Assembly (NCBI GenBank): GCA_023251295.1
Contig: JAHEYZ010000008.1
Location: 1-32,250 of the forward strand
Source of the DNA: Nitrosotalea sp.
GTDB lineage: Archaea; Thermoproteota; Nitrososphaeria; Nitrososphaerales; Nitrosopumilaceae
DNA: 32,250 bases
Reading direction: 5' to 3'
Positions 20,969-32,250 of this stretch are shown piece after piece. The notes under the pieces are model-generated. The model ran no database searches. It was given only the letters and a program-made list of their open reading frames with translations, and was not told the origin of the DNA. Position 1 is the stretch's first letter, and every line of letters begins with the position of its first letter. The translations under genes were made by a program, and so were the position numbers.

Positions 20969-23900
20969 TTACTCGTTTTTTATCACCTTCATGTAAAGAT
21001 CTACTGTACCTGTTCCCACTGGAATATTTGCACCTACTATAACATTTTCCGTTACCCCTTTGAGTTGTTCAACCTCACCAGCAAGAGCTGCTTCTGCAAT
21101 TGTAGGAACAGTGATTTCAAATGCAGCTCTTGCAAGTACACTAGTTTTCGTACCTGCAATTCCATGTCTGCCAATTTGTTGCATGTATCCTCTAGAACAC
21201 ATCAAATCTGCTACAAGCATGATGTATCGAATATCTACTTCTAAACCTTGATCTTCAAGTGTCGTACTAAGTTCATTTATTAACGCATTACGTGCAGCTT
21301 CGATACCCAAAGTATTTGCAATCTCAAAGACATTGTTTGTACGAATATCTTTTTTATCAATTCCTTCAACTTCGAACACTTTAGCAATGTTAGAACCAGA
21401 TGTTTGTATAACCCATTCATCATCCTGTTGTACAATTGTAACTCTTTCCACATCAGCTACACCCTTTACTTTTGTTCCAAGAATTTTGTTTCTAAGAGCA
21501 AGTATTGTTTGTGCGTCAGACTCCTCAGTAAGAGTAAGTGTGATGGAATTACCATTTGTTTCAATCTCAAATTTCTTTTTTGATGACTGTAGTGCCTCTT
21601 CAACATCACCAACTGTGCATGCTCTCTCTTTCAGTTTATCAGAATTGAGGTTTAGTTTTATTTTTGTTGAATAATCAGTCTCTGTGCTTGATATCAATGC
21701 CAAAATTTTCGTATGTAAAATCTCACGAGCTACTTGTATGGCTTTTTCCTTTGACTTTTTAAATTTTGGTTCCAAGTAGATATCCATTGTTGGGGTTAAC
21801 GGTTTTTTACGTGCATCAACAAGCTCAATTAGTCTTGGAAGACCCAAAGTTACGTTTCTTTCTCTAATTCCTGCAAAATGGAATGTCCTAAGTGTCATTT
21901 GTGTACCAGGTTCACCAATTGATTGTGCTGTAACTATTCCTACTGCTTGACCAGGTTCTACCTTTGCATTTTCATACAATTCAAGTGCTTTCTTACACAC
22001 TTTTTCTATCCCTTCTTTACTTAATTTTGCTTCAAGTAATGCGTCTTGAACCATTTTTGTAAGTCTTGGATTGAACGTCTTTGTGTATTTTTTAGCAAAC
22101 TCTGCAATATCTTCTTTTGTTGTTTTTTTACCAGAATCAACTATAGTTTCAGATTCTATCAATCTTTCGATTCTAAATGCTTCGCCATGATCACTTTTTG
22201 CAACGTCAATTCCATCTTCTCCATACAAAAATTGTATTATATGGCCATGCGGATCTCTTACTGTTCCATCATATTCGAGCTTAAGATGTTCAAGTGCATT
22301 AATCAACCTCCTTTGCATGTAGCCACTTTGTTGTGTTCTTACTGCCGTATCAACAAGCCCTTCACGACCTCCCATTGCATGGAAGAAAAATTCTAAAGTA
22401 GAAAGACCTTCTCGGTAGTTTGATTTTACAAATCCTCTTGCGTCAGGGTTTGTATCATTTTCTTTGTAGTGTGGCAGAGCTCTGTTATTATACCCTTTGT
22501 GAATCCTTTTTCCACGGATTGATTGTTGACCTAATGCTCCGGCCATCTGCCCTATATTTAATGATGAACCTCTAGCACCGGTAGTTGCCATTATTCTGCC
22601 TGAATTTGTTTCATCAAATGATTTATCAGCTGTACCCCCTGCCTTGTCTCTTGCTTTTGAGAGCTCATTTACAATATATGCTTCTAATGCCTCCTCTGCA
22701 GAGAGTCCTCTGCTAAGCTGTAAGGTTCCTTTTTTTGCTTGAGATATTAGATCGTAAACCTTGTCATATGTTTCATGTATTCCTCCAACAATGTTTTCTT
22801 TTGTTTTTTGTGAAAGTTCTAGGTCAGAATATCCGTAGCTGAATCCATAATGAGTAATAAACTGTTTTAACATCACAAGTATAGAATTTAAGAATTTCTT
22901 TGCTTCATCATTGCCATAATCCTTTGTTATTCTGTGTAATACACTATCTGGTTCTTCGGCACCAATTGCTGCTTTGTCAATTACACCACTGAGTAACTGA
23001 CCATTTTTAATAACGACATCTTTTGAGGGACCTTTTGTACCTTTAGACCATTTTGATGTAATAACATAATTGAAATCTTTTGGCATGAAAAGTGAAAATA
23101 GTTGTTTTCCTGTGTATAGTCCACCGCTTTTATTTTTGATTGCAGGTTCTGGGAATGTTCCTTTATAGTTAGCAATCATTGCAAGATTTGCAAACTCTTG
23201 AGGTGTAAGCGTTGTCCCGTCTTTTGTTAACAAGTAAGCTCCAGTAATAAAGTCACGTAGAGCTCCAATTATAGGACCACCGTATCGTGGCGAGATTAAT
23301 TGATCTTGAACTCGCATCAATAGAATTGCTTCTGCTCGAGCTTCCTCGCTTTGTGGTACATGTAAATTCATTTCATCACCATCAAAGTCAGCGTTGTATG
23401 GTGGACATACAGATGGATGTAATCTGAAGGTTTTTCCTGGTAAAACTTTCACATAGTGAGCCATAATTGACATTTGATGCAGAGATGGTTGTCTGTTAAA
23501 CATTACAATGTCACCATCTGAAAGATGTCGTTCTATCAGGTAGCCAATCTCGATGTTGTTGGCAATGGCTTCTCTGTCTTCTACAAAGTCAAGTCTGATT
23601 TTAACTCCGTCAGGTCTTACAATATAATTAGCACCTGGAAATTTAATCGGTCCGTTAATGACAAGTTTCTTTAGTCTTTCAACATTCCATTCTGTCACTA
23701 TCTCAGGTATAGTAAGCTTAGTTGCTACAGATTCTGGGACACCTACTTCGGAGAGATCAAGATTAGGATCTGGAGAGATGACAGTTCTGCTGGAAAAGTC
23801 AACTCTTTTCCCTGAAAGCGAACCTCGGAACCTTCCTTCTTTTCCTTTTAATCTTTGTGTAAGAGTTTTCAGCGGTCTGCCTGATCTATGGTGAGCTTGT

Positions 23901-24763
23901 GGAATACCAGAAACCTCGTTATCAAAATAGGTGGTTGTGTGATATTGTAACAAATCAACGAGATCCTGTACAATAAGAGGTGGAGTTCCTGCATCTTTGC
24001 TTTCTTTTAGCCTCTGATTTACTCTGATAATGTCTACAAGTTTGTGTGTTAGATCATCTTCAGATCGGATTCCGGTTTCCAGTATAATGGATGGCCTTAC
24101 AGTGACAGGTGGAACAGGTAAGACTTGTAGTATAAACCATTCTGGTCGTGCAGTAGTAGGATCATATCCCAAAAGTTTCAAGTCATCATCAATCATATGT
24201 GAGAATCTTTCTCTTATTGTAATTGGAAGTAATCTATTTTCTCCAAGTTCAGTCTTTTCAATAAAGATTGTCGGTTTCGTAAATATCATATCGTATTGAG
24301 ATTTACCACAATGTGGACAGGTCTTTTCTTTTTTTGCCTTTTCAATTATTTCATCAGGAATGTGTTTTATTGAAATTACGGTATACGCAGCTTCTTTGCT
24401 TTTTATTCTATGATATTCTTCAAGGTCTTCTTGTAAGATTTTAAGCCGGGCACATGATCTGCAAGTAGTTAAGAGGAGTTTGTAGATATTATCAATAAAT
24501 GCAATATGTAGAACAGGTTCAGCAAGTTCTATGTGACCAAAATGTCCGGGACATCTTGCTGCTGTGTTTCCACAAGTTACACATTTTTGTCCTGGTTCCA
24601 AAGTTCCAAGTCTTCCATCCATTAATCCTCCTTGTACTGCCATACCATCTTCATCATAGGTTTCTGGCGCCGTTATTTCAGCAACGGAATATTTCCTTAT
24701 TTCAGAGGGAGACCATACAGAGAATCTGATTCCATCTATTACTTTTATTGTTTCAAGTGCCAT
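20969..24763 (-). CDS. rpoA: DNA-directed RNA polymerase subunit A, A' and A'' in a single uninterrupted ORF
   Basis: 1264 aa; CVTCGNTAARCPGHFGHIEL, NADFDGDEMNLHVP (catalytic Mg site), EPGQAVGIVTAQSIGEPGTQMTLRTFHFAGI (A'' region) in one frame. Confidence 0.97.
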   Translation of the reverse strand: MALETIKVIDGIRFSVWSPSEIRKYSVAEITAPETYDEDGMAVQGGLMDGRLGTLEPGQKCVTCGNTAARCPGHFGHIELAEPVLHIAFIDNIYKLLLTTCRSCARLKILQEDLEEYHRIKSKEAAYTVISIKHIPDEIIEKAKKEKTCPHCGKSQYDMIFTKPTIFIEKTELGENRLLPITIRERFSHMIDDDLKLLGYDPTTARPEWFILQVLPVPPVTVRPSIILETGIRSEDDLTHKLVDIIRVNQRLKESKDAGTPPLIVQDLVDLLQYHTTTYFDNEVSGIPQAHHRSGRPLKTLTQRLKGKEGRFRGSLSGKRVDFSSRTVISPDPNLDLSEVGVPESVATKLTIPEIVTEWNVERLKKLVINGPIKFPGANYIVRPDGVKIRLDFVEDREAIANNIEIGYLIERHLSDGDIVMFNRQPSLHQMSIMAHYVKVLPGKTFRLHPSVCPPYNADFDGDEMNLHVPQSEEARAEAILLMRVQDQLISPRYGGPIIGALRDFITGAYLLTKDGTTLTPQEFANLAMIANYKGTFPEPAIKNKSGGLYTGKQLFSLFMPKDFNYVITSKWSKGTKGPSKDVVIKNGQLLSGVIDKAAIGAEEPDSVLHRITKDYGNDEAKKFLNSILVMLKQFITHYGFSYGYSDLELSQKTKENIVGGIHETYDKVYDLISQAKKGTLQLSRGLSAEEALEAYIVNELSKARDKAGGTADKSFDETNSGRIMATTGARGSSLNIGQMAGALGQQSIRGKRIHKGYNNRALPHYKENDTNPDARGFVKSNYREGLSTLEFFFHAMGGREGLVDTAVRTQQSGYMQRRLINALEHLKLEYDGTVRDPHGHIIQFLYGEDGIDVAKSDHGEAFRIERLIESETIVDSGKKTTKEDIAEFAKKYTKTFNPRLTKMVQDALLEAKLSKEGIEKVCKKALELYENAKVEPGQAVGIVTAQSIGEPGTQMTLRTFHFAGIRERNVTLGLPRLIELVDARKKPLTPTMDIYLEPKFKKSKEKAIQVAREILHTKILALISSTETDYSTKIKLNLNSDKLKERACTVGDVEEALQSSKKKFEIETNGNSITLTLTEESDAQTILALRNKILGTKVKGVADVERVTIVQQDDEWVIQTSGSNIAKVFEVEGIDKKDIRTNNVFEIANTLGIEAARNALINELSTTLEDQGLEVDIRYIMLVADLMCSRGYMQQIGRHGIAGTKTSVLARAAFEITVPTIAEAALAGEVEQLKGVTENVIVGANIPVGTGTVDLYMKVIKNE

Positions 24764-27700
24764 TATACTCTCTCCTTAATCAAGAGTCTTGGAGCAACAT
24801 CTAAGCTCATCATCTCTTGCAATAACAATTTGAATGCATATGCAACTGAAATTGAAGTCACTTTTGCTTTATCACCACACACACGACAAACAAATTTTCT
24901 TTGTTTTATATCATAATATGATACTAGCCCACATCTCTCACAAATGTAAATGTCAGCTTTGTCAGATTCGTCAAGCAATCTATCCTTTAGCATCATTGAA
25001 GCACCATATGCAATTAGACAGTCTCTTTCCATTTCTCCAAATCTCAATCCACCACCACGTGCACGTCCTTCTGTTGGTTGTTTTGTTAACATTTGGACTT
25101 GTCCTCTGGCTCTAGCATGGATCTTGTCAGCAACCATGTGATGGAGTTTTTGATAATATACTACGCCAATGAAGACTTCTCCTTCGAATGCTTTCCCGGT
25201 TCTTCCATCATACATTACTTCTTTTCCAGAATATTTGAATCCAGCAGATTCTAGTACACCTTTTACATCATCTAATTTTTCACCAACAAATGCGGAACCA
25301 TCCATTTTTGTTCCCCGCAAAGCTGCTGCTTTACCTGTTACTGATTCAAGAAACATTCCTACTGTCATTCTAGATGGAAATGCATGAGGATTAATTAGAA
25401 CATCCGGAACAACACCATTAACAGTATATGGTAAATCTTCATGGTTGACTAGCATACCAATAACACCCTTCTGACCATGTCTTGATGCAAATTTGTCACC
25501 GATTTCAGGAATTCTTGTATCCCTTACTCGTATTTTGTACATCTTTCCACCATCATGTGATTGAGTCATCACTACGTTGTCAACAACACCGTTCTCAGAT
25601 GGCCTTACACCGATAGATGTGTCCCTTCTATAAGGGCCTTTTACTTCAAATTCTCTGTATTCTTCCATAAATCGTGGTGGGCTAGTTTTTCCTATCAGGA
25701 TGTCTCCTCCTTGAACCATAGATTCTGTTGCAATTACACCGTCTTCTTCTAATAATCGGTAAGCCTTGTCTCCTCTAAATCCTCTAATGTTTCCTTCTGC
25801 ATTTGGAATTTCAAAGTTGTCACGCATACCTCCAGGATATTGTTTTGCTTCCGCTTCATAGATTCTATAAAAGAAAGTTCTGCCTAGTCCTCGCTCCACT
25901 GATGATTTACTAAGAACTATCGCGTCTTCTATATTATACCCGTCAAAAGGCAACACAGCTACAATACAATTTTGTCCTGCTGGCCTATCTTCAAGTCCCA
26001 AAAGCCCCATAGCTTTTGTTGTAACAATTGGGATTTGCGGGTATAACATAAAGTGTTGTCTTACATACGTACTTGCATTCATCAAGGGGGTCGAAAATCC
26101 GAGACTTTGTTTGGCCATAGCAGATTCATATGTATTTCTTGGAGATTGATTATGTTCTGGATAAGGAATGATTGATGCGCCAGCGCCCAATATTGCAGAA
26201 GGGAAAATTTCCATATGAGTATGTTTTTTGACGTTTTCTTCATCCATGGTGATGTAACAGTTTTCTTCCTCATTTGCATCTACTAGTTCAATTATTCCCA
26301 TATGTAGAAGATCGTTCCATGAAAGGAATTTTTTACTTATTTTGTCTATTAGTTCTTGTGTTAAAAGTGGCTTGTTATCTTTTATAACAATCAATGGACG
26401 CAAAACTCTTCCGGCATTACAATTAACATAAAGTCTTTTTGTTGAACCCTCAATATTAGATTGATATAGAAATATGCCAATATGTGGATGAATTTTAAAG
26501 TTACGTCTAAGTTCACGTAGTGAATCTGCAAGCTTCTGTCCATCTTTATAATATCCAATTAATCTTCCGTCTACAAAGATTCTAGCCCCATCTTTTTTTA
26601 ATTCGTCTTTTGCTTCTGAAACATAAGTTACACCTAGATCATAAAGTTTTTCAATTATATCCTCAGATGGGACATTTACTGATATTATGGCTGAAAGTGC
26701 AAGATTCTTCACCAATCCACAGTTTGAACCTTCAGGGGTTTCACTTGGACAGATTCTGCCAAAATGAGTTGCGTGTAGATCTCTTGCTTCAAAGTTTGGT
26801 TGGCTTCGGCTAAGTGGCGATTGGATTCTCCTAAGATGACTTATGGTAGAAAGATAGTTTGTTCTATCCAAAAGCTGTGTTACTCCCACTCTACCTCTTC
26901 CCCAGTTCCCAGTTGCTATTGCGTTGTTTAGTTTATCAGTAACTATGCCTGGTCTTACCGCTGCTGCTACTGCATTGATCCCTCTTTTCTGGCCTGATCT
27001 TTCTAATTGGTATTTCATATCACGAACCAAGTTTCTAAAAGCTGTTCTGAATAGATCTGCTAGCATTTGACCTGCAAACTTTATGACTTTGTTTCCATAA
27101 TGATCCTTGTCATCAGGAGTTAGCCAACCAAGTTTTAATTCAATTAATTTACAAGCTGCTTCTCCCAAAAACTGTGATTTTTCTTTTCTATTATCAGGGT
27201 GCTTGCCAAGATGTGGTAATAAACCCCAATCAAGTAAAGTTTCTGCTCTCTTTATCTGGAATTCTTCAAGCATTCCAGGTGCTATTCTTTTGCTAATGTA
27301 AACTATAGCATCTTTAGCGGTTGGTACGTCTCCTGATTTTTCAAAGGATGCTTCCAGTTCATCTTGAATTCCGTTAACAAGAGAAACTGCAGCTGCAATT
27401 TCTCTATCTGATTCAAGTCCAAGGGCTCTCATTAATGTAACCACTGGTATGTCAACAGGAGATCCTGGAATTTTTGCAACAATCAATCCATCATTTTTCA
27501 TAATGAGTTCTAGTTTCGCACGATAACCAACGATTGATGAATATACTTTTGCTTTGAATACAATGTTCCCACCAACAATTTCTTTGTCAACAATAATTTT
27601 ATTATAAGAAAGATCTTCTAAGCCTACAATTACTCGTTCAGAACCATTTATGATAAAATATCCTCCAGGATCATTTGGATCTTCACCATGCTCAACTAAT

Positions 27701-28110
27701 TTTTGTTCAGAAAGATTGTGTAAAACACATGCGTTTGATCTTATCATCAACGGCATGTCACCAATGTGAACAAATCTAGATTCTAGAATTTTTCCATCTT
27801 CTACGACACTTGCTTCAAGCATTACTGGTGATCCATACGTAACATTTCTTAATCTTGCTTCCATTGGGGCAATGTGTGTTATTGAACCATCAAGCTCCAT
27901 CATCCTTGCTTGTTGAAGTTTTAACTTACCAAGTTGAATTTTGTACGGATACTCTGCACTTTCAATTTCAATTTGTCCTACTTCATCAATTATACTTTGA
28001 AGACCACGTTCTAGAAATTCATCATAGGAGTTAAGATGTTGCCTGGCAATTCCTTCCCGTTTTAATATGTCTTGGATTATTGGCCAGCGTTTATTTGAGA
28101 TATTTACCAT
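24763..28110 (-). CDS. rpoB: DNA-directed RNA polymerase subunit B (unsplit)
   Basis: 1115 aa; GDKFASRHGQKGVIGMLVNHEDLPYTVNGVVPDVLINPHAFPSRMTVG, CERCGLVSYYDIKQRKFVCRVC zinc site. Confidence 0.98.
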   Translation of the reverse strand: MVNISNKRWPIIQDILKREGIARQHLNSYDEFLERGLQSIIDEVGQIEIESAEYPYKIQLGKLKLQQARMMELDGSITHIAPMEARLRNVTYGSPVMLEASVVEDGKILESRFVHIGDMPLMIRSNACVLHNLSEQKLVEHGEDPNDPGGYFIINGSERVIVGLEDLSYNKIIVDKEIVGGNIVFKAKVYSSIVGYRAKLELIMKNDGLIVAKIPGSPVDIPVVTLMRALGLESDREIAAAVSLVNGIQDELEASFEKSGDVPTAKDAIVYISKRIAPGMLEEFQIKRAETLLDWGLLPHLGKHPDNRKEKSQFLGEAACKLIELKLGWLTPDDKDHYGNKVIKFAGQMLADLFRTAFRNLVRDMKYQLERSGQKRGINAVAAAVRPGIVTDKLNNAIATGNWGRGRVGVTQLLDRTNYLSTISHLRRIQSPLSRSQPNFEARDLHATHFGRICPSETPEGSNCGLVKNLALSAIISVNVPSEDIIEKLYDLGVTYVSEAKDELKKDGARIFVDGRLIGYYKDGQKLADSLRELRRNFKIHPHIGIFLYQSNIEGSTKRLYVNCNAGRVLRPLIVIKDNKPLLTQELIDKISKKFLSWNDLLHMGIIELVDANEEENCYITMDEENVKKHTHMEIFPSAILGAGASIIPYPEHNQSPRNTYESAMAKQSLGFSTPLMNASTYVRQHFMLYPQIPIVTTKAMGLLGLEDRPAGQNCIVAVLPFDGYNIEDAIVLSKSSVERGLGRTFFYRIYEAEAKQYPGGMRDNFEIPNAEGNIRGFRGDKAYRLLEEDGVIATESMVQGGDILIGKTSPPRFMEEYREFEVKGPYRRDTSIGVRPSENGVVDNVVMTQSHDGGKMYKIRVRDTRIPEIGDKFASRHGQKGVIGMLVNHEDLPYTVNGVVPDVLINPHAFPSRMTVGMFLESVTGKAAALRGTKMDGSAFVGEKLDDVKGVLESAGFKYSGKEVMYDGRTGKAFEGEVFIGVVYYQKLHHMVADKIHARARGQVQMLTKQPTEGRARGGGLRFGEMERDCLIAYGASMMLKDRLLDESDKADIYICERCGLVSYYDIKQRKFVCRVCGDKAKVTSISVAYAFKLLLQEMMSLDVAPRLLIKERV

Positions 28111-28361
28111 TATTCTTCCACCACATATCTGTAATAGATGCTTTCACCTGCTGTTGCACTTTTTCTTGTTATTTTCATCATGTCACCCGGTTTGACCCCC
28201 AATCCCTTTATGGCAGGATCATTTACGTAGATAAGTGGCATTTCAGTCGGTTTAGTATGAAACTTTTCTAAGATTCCCTCTGCTTCTTTTTTTGACATTA
28301 TTTCGTGCTTTGGAACATAAATATGATCTGGTACTAGTATGTGATCTTTTCTAGTTAACAA
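28110..28361 (-). CDS. rpoH: DNA-directed RNA polymerase subunit H (TTG start in the track; start uncertain)
   Basis: DHIYVPKHEIMSKKEAEGILEKF...DPAIKGLGVKPGDMMKITRKSATAGESIYYRYVVEE matches RpoH. Confidence 0.93.
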   Translation of the reverse strand: MLTRKDHILVPDHIYVPKHEIMSKKEAEGILEKFHTKPTEMPLIYVNDPAIKGLGVKPGDMMKITRKSATAGESIYYRYVVEE

Positions 28362-28536: not shown

Positions 28537-29364
28537 ATGAGTACTCGTTTTAAGGGATTTGCTTTGCTTGCAATTCTGGCCGTAGCAATAGTAACTATTC
28601 CAGCTTTTGCACAACAAGAAAATCCTTTGGATACAGTACCAATAACTGTCACGACAGATAAAGAGTCATATGCAGATGGAGAAACCATCGTCATCTCTGG
28701 TGAATCAAAAGATTTCATCTCCGGCGTCCAGGTTAGCATTGTTGTTACCAATCCCATTGGAAATCGGGTAGCAATTCAACAATTAGATCTAGAACCTGAC
28801 AAAACATATTCTACTTCAATTACTGCAGGTGGCGGTTTGTGGAAAGCTGCTGGCACATATACAGTTAAAGTACAATATGGAAGCGACAACAGATCAAATG
28901 AGACAACATTTGAATTCAGTGGTTCTTCTGGAACAACTTCAGGGAAAAAAACTCATGTTGAAGGAACTGACTTTGATGTGAGCTACAGTATTACAGGAGG
29001 TAAAGTTCTAGGAATCACAGCTGATGTTGAAGCCAAATCTTTACTCGTGTCAATCGAAACTACAAGTGATGGAACATTAATCATTACTTTACCAAGAGGA
29101 TTGATCGATGCCAAGATAAATGGTGAGGATGACAGTTTCTTTGTCCTAATAGATGGTGAAGAAGTAGAGTTTACTGAAGAAATAACGTCTGAAGATAGAA
29201 CTCTGACAATTCACTTCCAAGATGGAGCTGAAGAGATAGAGATAATTGGTACTTGGATAATTCCAGAGTTTGGTGCAATAGCAGCTTTGGTACTTGCAGT
29301 TGCAATTATATCGATAATTGCTCTTTCTGCAAAGACAAGGCTAAGACTGATGCCAAAATACTAG
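28537..29364 (+). CDS. PEFG-CTERM surface protein paralogue 1
   Basis: 275 aa; signal peptide (FALLAILAVAIVTIPAFAQQ), beta-rich ectodomain, C-terminal PEFG-TM-basic tail (IPEFGAIAALVLAVAIISIIALSAKTRLRLMPKY). Confidence 0.92.
   Translation: MSTRFKGFALLAILAVAIVTIPAFAQQENPLDTVPITVTTDKESYADGETIVISGESKDFISGVQVSIVVTNPIGNRVAIQQLDLEPDKTYSTSITAGGGLWKAAGTYTVKVQYGSDNRSNETTFEFSGSSGTTSGKKTHVEGTDFDVSYSITGGKVLGITADVEAKSLLVSIETTSDGTLIITLPRGLIDAKINGEDDSFFVLIDGEEVEFTEEITSEDRTLTIHFQDGAEEIEIIGTWIIPEFGAIAALVLAVAIISIIALSAKTRLRLMPKY
29262..29364 (+). repeat. 103-bp identical PEFG-tail cassette, copy A
   Basis: Identical to 30552-30654 and 31444-31546. A and B together are identical over 124 bp (29258-29381 = 30548-30671), including 17 nt after the stop codon. 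Confidence 0.95.
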
Positions 29365-29372
29365 GAATTTCA

Positions 29373-29386
29373 ACTTTTTTCTTTTT
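29373..29386 (+). terminator. T-rich tract, candidate terminator of paralogue 1
   Basis: TTTTTTCTTTTT directly after the stop; oligo-T tracts are typical archaeal terminators. Confidence 0.4.
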
Positions 29387-29457
29387 AAGATTCTCTAAGA
29401 TAGCAGTTGATCTAAACTTTTGTGGCTCCTGTACAAATTGCGGTTTATTTATAATAT

Positions 29458-29480
29458 TTATTTTATAGATTATAAAATAA
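29458..29480. repeat. Perfect 10-bp inverted repeat with 3-nt spacer in the intergenic region
   Basis: TTATTTTATA-GAT-TATAAAATAA. Confidence 0.6.
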
Positions 29481-29742
29481 TTGGGATTTAGTTCTTTATT
29501 TGAATTTTAATAATTGTAATAATAAAATTTTGCTTCATGTCTTCTTTAGGAAAAGAATGATTAGTTATTCATATAGAATTTTTGCCATCTAAATATGACA
29601 ATACGAATCTGTTTGCAGAATAATTTCGTATAGGTCACGAAACAAATATTTTGATAGGTAAATTTAAGAAAGATCTAGTTTATTCAGAATTTAACTGACC
29701 AGAATACATTGGAAGAAAACCATTAAAGTGATGACAAAATCC

Positions 29743-29762
29743 TTTTTAAATATATATAAATA
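29743..29762 (+). promoter_or_regulatory. Strong TATA-box candidate for paralogue 2
   Basis: TTTTTAAATATATATAAATA about 25-45 nt upstream of the ATG at 29788. Confidence 0.6.
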
Positions 29763-29787
29763 GTGTTTCATCTTTATTCGAAGCAAT

Positions 29788-30654
29788 ATGAGTACTCATA
29801 AAGAATATGCGCTGATCGCTATTCTTGCTACAGCGGCAGTAATGGGAGCCATTCCAGCTTTTGCAGCTGATGAACTGGCATGCCCTGATTGTGTAGGTAG
29901 AGAAGATACAGAAAATCTACTACCGATCTCAGTTTGGACGGACAAGGCAGTGTATAACCAACCTAGTACAATTCAAGTTGGTGGCCATGTCAAAGATTTA
30001 CGTCCTAACTTGGATGTCACACTCAAAGTAGTTGGCCCCACAGGAAATATTGTCAAAGTTGATCAAATTATGGTTGACGACAATGGTGACTTTGAAACTA
30101 CCTTGGATACGTCAAGTCTATTATGGACCAAAAACGGAGTCTATACAATTTCAGTTCAATACGGGAAGATTGGTAGATCAAACGAAGTTCAAGTAGAGCT
30201 TTTCGCAGGCGGAGTTTGCGGGGAATCATCACTGGCTGTTAAAGCAGGCATGGAGACATACTGCATACCATATAGTGTCACTGGTGCTACCGTAAAAGGT
30301 GGAACAATTGATATGAAATCCAAATCTCTGATAGTGCAAATCGATTCAGAAAGTGATGGAGATCTTACTCTAAACATTCCAAGATCAGTACTGGATTCAA
30401 AATCAGGAAGTCAAGATAGCAGATTCTTTGTCCTAGTAAATGGCGAAGAACAAGACATATACAGTGAAGAAAAAACAGACGATACCAGATCCGTAACAAT
30501 TCAGTTTGAAAGTGGGGTTGATGAGATAGAGATCATTGGTACAAATGTAATTCCAGAGTTTGGTGCAATAGCAGCTTTGGTACTTGCAGTTGCAATTATA
30601 TCGATAATTGCTCTTTCTGCAAAGACAAGGCTAAGACTGATGCCAAAATACTAG
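29788..30654 (+). CDS. PEFG-CTERM surface protein paralogue 2 (Cys-containing)
   Basis: 288 aa; signal peptide ending IPAFAAD, same two-part ectodomain pattern, same tail VIPEFGAIAALVLAVAIISIIALSAKTRLRLMPKY. Confidence 0.92.
   Translation: MSTHKEYALIAILATAAVMGAIPAFAADELACPDCVGREDTENLLPISVWTDKAVYNQPSTIQVGGHVKDLRPNLDVTLKVVGPTGNIVKVDQIMVDDNGDFETTLDTSSLLWTKNGVYTISVQYGKIGRSNEVQVELFAGGVCGESSLAVKAGMETYCIPYSVTGATVKGGTIDMKSKSLIVQIDSESDGDLTLNIPRSVLDSKSGSQDSRFFVLVNGEEQDIYSEEKTDDTRSVTIQFESGVDEIEIIGTNVIPEFGAIAALVLAVAIISIIALSAKTRLRLMPKY
30552..30654 (+). repeat. 103-bp identical PEFG-tail cassette, copy B
   Basis: See copy A. Confidence 0.95.
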
Positions 30655-30662
30655 GAATTTCA

Positions 30663-30679
30663 ACTTTTTTCATTTTTTT
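30663..30679 (+). terminator. T-rich tract, candidate terminator of paralogue 2
   Basis: CTTTTTTCATTTTTTT shortly after the stop. Confidence 0.4.
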
Positions 30680-30727
30680 GTATTAATGTATAGTAAAGGA
30701 AATATACAACATAAGAACATTTTTTCT

Positions 30728-31546
30728 ATGCGTTATTTTTCAATAATTATAATTTCAATTTTATTAACAAGTATAATTCCAAGTTTTTCCCAAGAAGTTG
30801 CCCAACCTCTTATCACCGTTTCTACTGATAGATCTTCATATAAAGATGGAGACATGATAATAATTTCAGGTTCAGTAAAGGCAATTGTAGAGGGTACACC
30901 TTTAACGATTCAGATTTTAGATCCTAATCAGAATAAAGTTCAGATAGCTCAGATAGGTGTTGCCCAAGATGGAAAATATACAACTGCTGCCCAAGCTAGT
31001 GGGCCGTTGTGGAAAAAAGACGGCATGTATACAGTGAAAGTGCAGTATGGACCTCCAAGTGTTGTTGCTGAAACAAATTTTGAATTTAAAAGCGTGTCTT
31101 CAACACCAGCTATGGAGATTTTCGAGGTGGATGCGGGGGATCAGGGAACTTTTGATGTCGAATACAATATCAGTGGCGGGATAGTCAAAGATATGAGTAT
31201 TGATTTTGAAGGTCTTTCTTTAATCGTATCTATTGAATCTACAAGTGACGGTACGATCACATTAAAGATGTCAAGAGAATTAATAGATGCAAAAACAACT
31301 GGCGGCGAAGATGATGTGTTTATTGTTCTAATAGATGGAACACAAGTAATTTCTGAAGAAGAAATAACATCTTCTGACAGGACTCTTACAATAAACTTCT
31401 TAGAAGGAGACTCGGACGTTGAGATAATTGGCACATTTGTTGCTCCAGAGTTTGGTGCAATAGCAGCTTTGGTACTTGCAGTTGCAATTATATCGATAAT
31501 TGCTCTTTCTGCAAAGACAAGGCTAAGACTGATGCCAAAATACTAG
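30728..31546 (+). CDS. PEFG-CTERM surface protein paralogue 3 (track ORF starts at 30686; 30728 preferred)
   Basis: From 30728: MRYFSIIIISILLTSIIPSFSQ is a compact signal peptide; AAATATA at 30700-30706 sits about 25 nt upstream. Tail APEFGAIAALVLAVAIISIIALSAKTRLRLMPKY. Confidence 0.88.
   Translation: MRYFSIIIISILLTSIIPSFSQEVAQPLITVSTDRSSYKDGDMIIISGSVKAIVEGTPLTIQILDPNQNKVQIAQIGVAQDGKYTTAAQASGPLWKKDGMYTVKVQYGPPSVVAETNFEFKSVSSTPAMEIFEVDAGDQGTFDVEYNISGGIVKDMSIDFEGLSLIVSIESTSDGTITLKMSRELIDAKTTGGEDDVFIVLIDGTQVISEEEITSSDRTLTINFLEGDSDVEIIGTFVAPEFGAIAALVLAVAIISIIALSAKTRLRLMPKY
31444..31546 (+). repeat. 103-bp identical PEFG-tail cassette, copy C
   Basis: Identical to copies A and B from the last base of the codon before PEFG through the stop codon; sequence after the stop differs. 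Confidence 0.95.
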
Positions 31547-31613: not shown

Positions 31614-32250
31614 ATGGCTTTACGATATGCAGCTTATGCACTAGCAGTCGTTTTAATATCTTCAATTGGTATTACCATTCCTGCATTTGGAGCTGGACTT
31701 GATGACCATAATGTTCCACCGATCAGTTTACAAACTGATAGCGATTATTATGATCAAGGAGACACAATAGTAGTAACTGGTCTTGTAAAGAAACCAGGAG
31801 AGGGCATACCTATCACCTTAAGAATTCTTGATGCAAATAGCAAGTTAGTTCAGATTGATCAGTTTAACCCATCAGCAGATGGAAGTTTTTCAAAAACATA
31901 TGTAGCAACTGGTCCATATTGGAAGGCTAAAGGAAACTATACCGTAATAGCACAATATGGTTCAGCTCAAAAGGTAGATTCAACATTTTTCTTTAGTGGT
32001 GGTTCAGGATCGTCTGAGATAGGCAAGGTGGAGAAAAAAGTTTTCACAATTGATGTAAAGGGAGTAGGAGAATTTGATGTAGAGTATATCATAAGAGGCG
32101 GAATTGTTAAAAATATGGAAATTGATCCGGAGAATTTAGCACTAGTAATAACAATAGATGCAATAAAAGATGGTTCGATTACAGTAACCCTTCCAAGAGA
32201 CATGATAGAGGCGAAGAAACCAGCTAACCTAAATGCTGATGACATTCTAG
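31614..32250 (+). CDS. Fourth paralogue of the same secreted family (3' end beyond window)
   Basis: Open to the window end: MALRYAAYALAVVLISSIGITIPAFGAGLDDHNVPPISLQTDSDYYDQGDTIVVTGLVKKPGEGIPITLRILDANSKLVQIDQF...GPYWKAKGNYTVIAQYG...GEFDVEYIIRGGIVKNMEIDPENLALVITIDAIKDGSITVTLPRDMIEAKK. Same domain pattern as paralogues 1-3; not in the supplied ORF track because it has no stop. Confidence 0.88.
   Translation, partial: MALRYAAYALAVVLISSIGITIPAFGAGLDDHNVPPISLQTDSDYYDQGDTIVVTGLVKKPGEGIPITLRILDANSKLVQIDQFNPSADGSFSKTYVATGPYWKAKGNYTVIAQYGSAQKVDSTFFFSGGSGSSEIGKVEKKVFTIDVKGVGEFDVEYIIRGGIVKNMEIDPENLALVITIDAIKDGSITVTLPRDMIEAKKPANLNADDIL

Follow-up and report, generated by a model that had tools for sequence, protein, structure and literature searches.

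Tail-confined concerted evolution in a tandem array of PEFG-CTERM protein genes of Nitrosopumilaceae, probably by recurrent gene conversion

In Helicobacter pylori, segment 3 of homA and homB undergoes concerted evolution by intragenomic gene conversion (PMC2795765), and the same is given for segment 3 of babA and babB in the passage of that paper that cites Pride and Blaser 2002. Among archaea, long-lasting gene conversion of one domain has been described for mtrA-1 and mtrA-2 of the Methanococcales and Methanomicrobiales, the other domain having remained distinct (PMC4632066). In Haloferax volcanii, intermolecular gene conversion efficiently equalises genome copies (PMC11276520). PEFG-CTERM proteins (TIGR04296) of ammonia-oxidising archaea have been described by proteomics (PMC6593220); a search of mostly open-access literature found no earlier report of homogenisation of PEFG-CTERM tail DNA.

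The locus described here is like hom and bab, in which the 3' segment of paralogous surface protein genes clusters by strain and the central segment diverges (PMC2795765). However, hom and bab are pairs of bacterial outer membrane protein loci within strains of one species, whereas the present case concerns an archaeal membrane-sorting signal of ~102 bp with its probable terminator, in arrays of three to five genes with fixed orthologous ectodomains across many genera. With mtrA it has in common that one domain of archaeal tandem paralogues is homogenised; there, it is the soluble catalytic domain and the transmembrane part differs, whereas here only the transmembrane and sorting tail is affected. 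In H. volcanii, conversion is allelic, between chromosome copies of a polyploid, in contrast to the ectopic conversion between paralogues proposed below. The pattern is one of known segmental concerted evolution, and what sets it apart is the short unit, its composition of sorting signal with terminator, and its persistence over many genera.

The window (the whole stretch of 32,250 nt analysed here) belongs to a 69% complete assembly of 57 contigs and holds the following features; genera are denoted g1, g6 and so on, and gene classes are those defined by ectodomain orthology.

24763 to 28110, minus strand: rpoB, syntenic anchor
28110 to 28361, minus strand: rpoH, divergent neighbour, array anchor in most relatives
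28537 to 29364, plus strand: gene A (open reading frame, class A orthologues), 275-aa predicted secreted PEFG-CTERM protein with signal peptide, MG2-like beta domain, second beta domain and PEFG tail
29263 to 29364, plus strand: tail cassette copy A, PEFG codon to stop, 102 bp, 100% identical to copies B and C
29365 to 29381, plus strand: homogenised 3' flank of A with T-run (probable transcription terminator), same as 30655 to 30671 after B
29788 to 30654, plus strand: gene B (open reading frame, class B orthologues in g1, g6 and g9), 288-aa PEFG-CTERM paralogue
30553 to 30654, plus strand: tail cassette copy B, 100% identical to A and C
30655 to 30671, plus strand: homogenised 3' flank of B, identical to flank of A
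30686 to 31546, plus strand: gene C (open reading frame, class C orthologues throughout), 286-aa PEFG-CTERM paralogue; translation may in fact start at an internal ATG
31445 to 31546, plus strand: tail cassette copy C, 100% identical to A and B
31614 to 32250, plus strand: gene D (class D orthologues in g6, g8 and g9), fourth paralogue, truncated at its 3' end by the contig end, open frame of 212 codons

The tail of gene D lies beyond the contig end (32250). RNA polymerase subunit A is split into A' and A'' genes in most archaea, with the unsplit form known for this phylum, and at 20969-24763 of the window it is a single unsplit gene of 1264 aa.

The products of A, B and C have a signal peptide, then two beta domains and then the PEFG-CTERM sorting tail, which is recognized by TIGR04296 at the C terminus with 40.1, 40.9 and 40.2 bits, respectively (curated cut-off, 25). 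By profile they are members of the PEFG-CTERM class, a membership from which putative anchoring or cleavage of the tail by an archaeosortase is predicted. Pfam MG2 matches of the first beta domain are weak and under the cut-off. A low-confidence structure model of the gene A protein (pLDDT 66) places a helix at residues 246-270 and matches the MG2 domain of alpha-2-macroglobulin (2p9r; target TM, 0.70-0.72); as a prediction, only its MG2-like N-terminal domain is credible. A contig search with protein A returned only two relatives and one unrelated weak match. A near relative of the window (L086, labelled Nitrosopumilaceae) has 91.6% DNA identity to it over about 4.5 kb.

A preliminary description of this DNA had claimed that the tails of the three paralogues are identical while their ectodomains have diverged, and each element of that claim was confirmed. 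The 103 bp that end at the TAG stop (29262-29364, 30552-30654 and 31444-31546) are the same in A, B and C, third codon positions included, with the three-way identity starting one base ahead of the PEFG codons, and the longer A-B identity of 124 bp does reach past the stop, with 107 bp up to it and 17 bp beyond. In codon alignments of the three genes, the longest identical runs are 100-104 nt, whereas the longest obtained by shuffling the columns 10,000 times was 32 nt. The tails have a dS of 0 over about 27 synonymous sites and use the same codon at 32/32 positions, compared with 41-57% of the amino-acid-identical codons of the ectodomains, for which dS is 1.56 (A-B), 1.67 (A-C) or saturated (B-C). 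Runs so far above the shuffles, together with the contrast in dS, indicate that chance and protein constraint do not explain the identity of the tails. The genome-wide search that had been proposed for the tail block found copies only in A, B and C, in an own genome that is 69% complete.

Among 121 relatives, tail DNA was detected in 57; when a second query was used, it was detected in 219 of 252 family genomes. Arrays were extracted from 39 genomes and then from further ones, with one genome per species in the comparison; several of the genomes are MAGs. The gene order of the array is conserved in the Nitrosopumilaceae: ectodomain classes A, X, B2 and C are found in most genera, A, S, B, C and D in g6 and g9, and A, B, C and D in the genus of the window. 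Because classes A, X/S, B/B2, C and D are orthologous across many genera, the duplications must be older than the genera. The phenomenon first described from one locus extends over a whole family with conserved gene order. In two sister genomes (L117 from G168 and L055 from G013), the stretch fetched beside the array contains no rpoH, and an extra A-like gene is located upstream.

That the gene copies are young products of a recent tandem duplication, with the tail merely their slowest part, would be in keeping with the tandem layout and the partly similar ectodomains. However, low synonymous divergence is not seen over the full length of the genes, and the ectodomains form orthologous clades across genera, which leaves this explanation with practically no chance of being correct.

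Across the family, the tails were found to follow the genome rather than the gene. The 67 genomes that carry two or more array tails yield 238 within-genome pairs, for which the median tail DNA identity is 99% and the minimum is 87.3%; 34% of the pairs are fully identical. Median synonymous-codon identity of paralogous tails within genomes is 100%, with an ectodomain amino acid identity of 35%, while for orthologous tails it is 88% between congeneric genomes and 68% between genera. When different genomes of one genus are compared, orthologous tails are no more similar to each other than paralogous ones (92.9 and 92.8% in g12, 95.9 and 95.9% in g15, and 95.3 and 95.2% in g9, respectively), and hence a tail retains no memory of the gene it belongs to. 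The nearest neighbour of 87 of 109 tails lies in their own genome, and in most congeneric comparisons there are sites fixed for different bases in each genome across all copies. The tail tree, with 68 gene-class changes and 14 genus changes, is ordered by taxon; the ectodomain tree, with 7 and 32, respectively, is ordered by gene. Clades of A tails (p=7e-39) and of X tails (p=5e-62) were rejected by the AU test, and the tail pattern was replicated in 38 further genomes. Thus, paralogous tails of one genome are more alike than orthologous tails of different genomes, the duplication is older than the homogenised divergence, and the tails of relatives track their own genome and not their own orthologue.

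Partial tracts are present as well. In two g22 genomes, the C tail equals the A tail for the first 61-62 bp and then diverges abruptly, as would be expected of a conversion tract. A mosaic test found clustered mismatches (P<0.001) in several pairs, for example A-X of G013 and X-B2 of G004, and many other pairs were not significant. GC-biased conversion was considered and showed no sign, GC3 being 0.218 in homogenised tails and 0.253 in ectodomains. A bimodal identity threshold (<70 versus >87%) was likewise dropped, being blurred by the intermediate values of g13 and g22.

The tail is a functional signal recognized by TIGR04296, and its amino acid identity is high between genomes too, with a median of 85% for other genera. 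To that extent, purifying selection that acts on nothing but the protein sequence of the signal could be thought sufficient. The preliminary description had judged otherwise, and we agree: such selection does not account for synonymous codons that are the same within genomes and differ between them. Furthermore, PEFG tails outside the array have only 44-47% of synonymous codons in common with the array of their own genome (synonymous identity of an unbiased set of unlinked tails to the array in two complete genomes, 0.44 and 0.47, versus 1.00 within the array), and an unlinked tail on contig C20 of the window's own genome is 64% identical to the array. The C tails outside the window clade and the tails of g13 have diverged yet kept their signal: homogenisation has been lost in g13 (A-B2, 75%), and C tails outside g1, g6 and g9 differ in both sequence and length. 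Selection on the protein alone is consequently a very improbable explanation.

The excess of within- over between-genome identity is limited to the stretch that starts at the P codon and ends about 24 nt after the stop. Upstream of the P codon, it is near zero, even where paralogues are 75-95% similar (A-B2 and B-C). These limits, together with tails that follow the genome, support the earlier proposal of gene conversion or recombination confined to the tail, with the refinement that the block usually also takes in about 20-25 nt of terminator. A run of at least five T residues within 35 nt of the stop was found for 203 of 215 family tails, and this T-run past the stop is likely to be a transcription terminator. 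In every array examined, gene C is followed by a 3' flank of its own, and its homogenised stretch ends at the stop codon.

From pair to pair, the start of the identical run lies 0-48 nt upstream of PEFG and its end 0-28 nt downstream of the stop, and this variability means that no fixed site is involved. In a search for a site-specific cassette or mobile element, no inverted repeats were found in the array region and no boundary was fixed between pairs; precise site-specific exchange is excluded by the variable boundaries. It is conceivable that an element acting at the nucleotide level, such as an RNA structure or a regulatory site, constrains the tail DNA, and the extension of identity into a 3' flank with a T-run terminator would fit with this. 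However, an element of this kind would be conserved between genomes too, whereas the synonymous sites agree within genomes and differ between them, and we regard this explanation as vanishingly improbable.

An assembly artefact, in which repeats are collapsed or polished to one consensus in metagenome bins, was also weighed. Contigs do break at the tails: L086 ends 21 bp inside a tail, and contigs of several other relatives (L049, L023 and L032) end in or beside one. On the other hand, the three window copies are located on one contig with unique flanks, complete genomes on a single contig show the same pattern (for example G046, with A-X-B2 at 100%, and G198, G255 and G010), and consensus was not forced, given that many copies are 1-6 bases apart. 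It is therefore highly unlikely that the identity was produced by assembly. Short-read assemblies will nevertheless break or be mis-joined at identical PEFG tails.

The preliminary description had further suggested that the tail would be a homology block by which ectodomains could be exchanged or deleted, and loss or fusion of ectodomains was seen in three genomes. In G060, only A and C are left, X and B2 are missing, and the A ectodomain continues via the tail into the 3' flank that belongs to B2; what follows the A tail scores 97-99 against the B2 flank of congeners and 18-21 against their A flank. G013 lacks the B2 gene of its sister G168, and the flank after its X gene matches the one after B2 in G168 (score of 105 versus 61). 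G043 carries a fusion in which the first half of B leads, out of frame, into the second half of C, and the tail of the latter is followed by the B flank. This frame-broken B/C chimera (L028:2139-3878) is accompanied by a shortened D, and the array of G043 appears to be decaying. That about 70 arrays include two clean deletions and one chimera indicates that crossovers through the tail occur but are rare or selected against. With regard to the earlier suggestion, conversion without crossover is thus the rule, and deletion mediated by the cassette is rare.

Two further observations concern homogenisation in other places. A second tandem PEFG cluster away from rpoB (L089; G007:C9:316500-322500) has tails that are 87-96% identical and ectodomains that are 26-57% identical, so tail homogenisation may extend beyond the array at rpoB. 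In several genomes (G043, G065, G044 and G066; L028, L025-L026, L030 and L031), the signal peptide DNA of genes S and B is 87-100% identical, and both ends of these genes may be homogenised in those arrays.

As far as sequence comparison can tell, recurrent short-tract ectopic gene conversion of the array tails is very probably the best explanation for these data. According to this model, the tandem array would be old and would encode secreted surface proteins anchored in the membrane, with concerted evolution confined to a C-terminal sorting cassette that runs from the PEFG motif through a transmembrane helix and a basic end to the stop and takes in about 25 nt of terminator. The sorting signal would be preserved by purifying selection, so that the tails stay the sole near-identical stretch among the paralogues, and homologous recombination would therefore copy one tail into its neighbours. 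The direct repeats, which lie about 0.6-1.5 kb apart in most arrays, would be the conversion partners, and tails would be copied as short tracts, mostly inside the array and mostly without crossover, with synonymous differences being reset each time. The ectodomains, too diverged to recombine, would evolve as ordinary orthologues. Rare resolution as a crossover between two tails would delete the intervening ectodomain or ectodomains, and copies whose similarity is lost, as in g13 and most C genes, would escape conversion. The enzymology would presumably be that of ordinary homologous recombination, with tract ends set by loss of homology; however, as upstream DNA of 75-95% similarity is not homogenised, a homology limit alone would require a fairly strict identity threshold or, in addition, selection against hybrid ectodomains.

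Some observations stand against recurrent conversion within arrays. Homogenisation is incomplete or lost in g13 and in the C tails outside g1, g6 and g9, and in G168 and G013, a gene far from the array, with an ectodomain 54% identical to that of B2, has a tail identical to those of X and B2 at 102/102 positions. This unlinked tail contradicts a strict linkage requirement.

It has also to be considered whether selection favours uniform tails, either to fit the single archaeosortase of a genome or as a recombination hub, so that conversion would be adaptive. An archaeosortase-type gene was found in 11 of 11 genomes tested (one in ten of them, two in one), TIGR04178 being over its cut-off in the window's own genome (G000, C9:2636-2923) and in 10 of 10 relatives. 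With the Pfam profile Exosortase_EpsH (PF09721), no archaeosortase was found in G046, G067 and G060, whereas the shorter NCBIfam profile TIGR04178 finds one in each, a difference that is a pitfall for annotation. In favour of adaptive uniformity, the homogenised unit coincides precisely with the sorting domain, and the tails carry amino acid changes that are fixed genome by genome. However, the PEFG tails found elsewhere in these genomes are for the most part very different, although they presumably use the same sortase; many unlike tails coexisting in one genome argue against a strong need for uniformity, and a neutral by-product model suffices. We therefore consider adaptive uniformity unlikely. 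The wider idea that the re-copied module of tail and terminator would act family-wide as a recombination hub for ectodomain loss and fusion, with homogenisation selected for uniform sorting, is offered as a tentative and rather doubtful proposal.

Annotation or phylogeny based on PEFG C-terminal tails is misleading in these organisms. Recombination in abundant marine archaea is difficult to investigate, and for gene conversion the array provides an unusually clean natural experiment, with a unit of ~100 bp that has the limits of the sorting signal, dozens of replicate genomes, and controls in the form of escaped C tails, g13 and unlinked tails.
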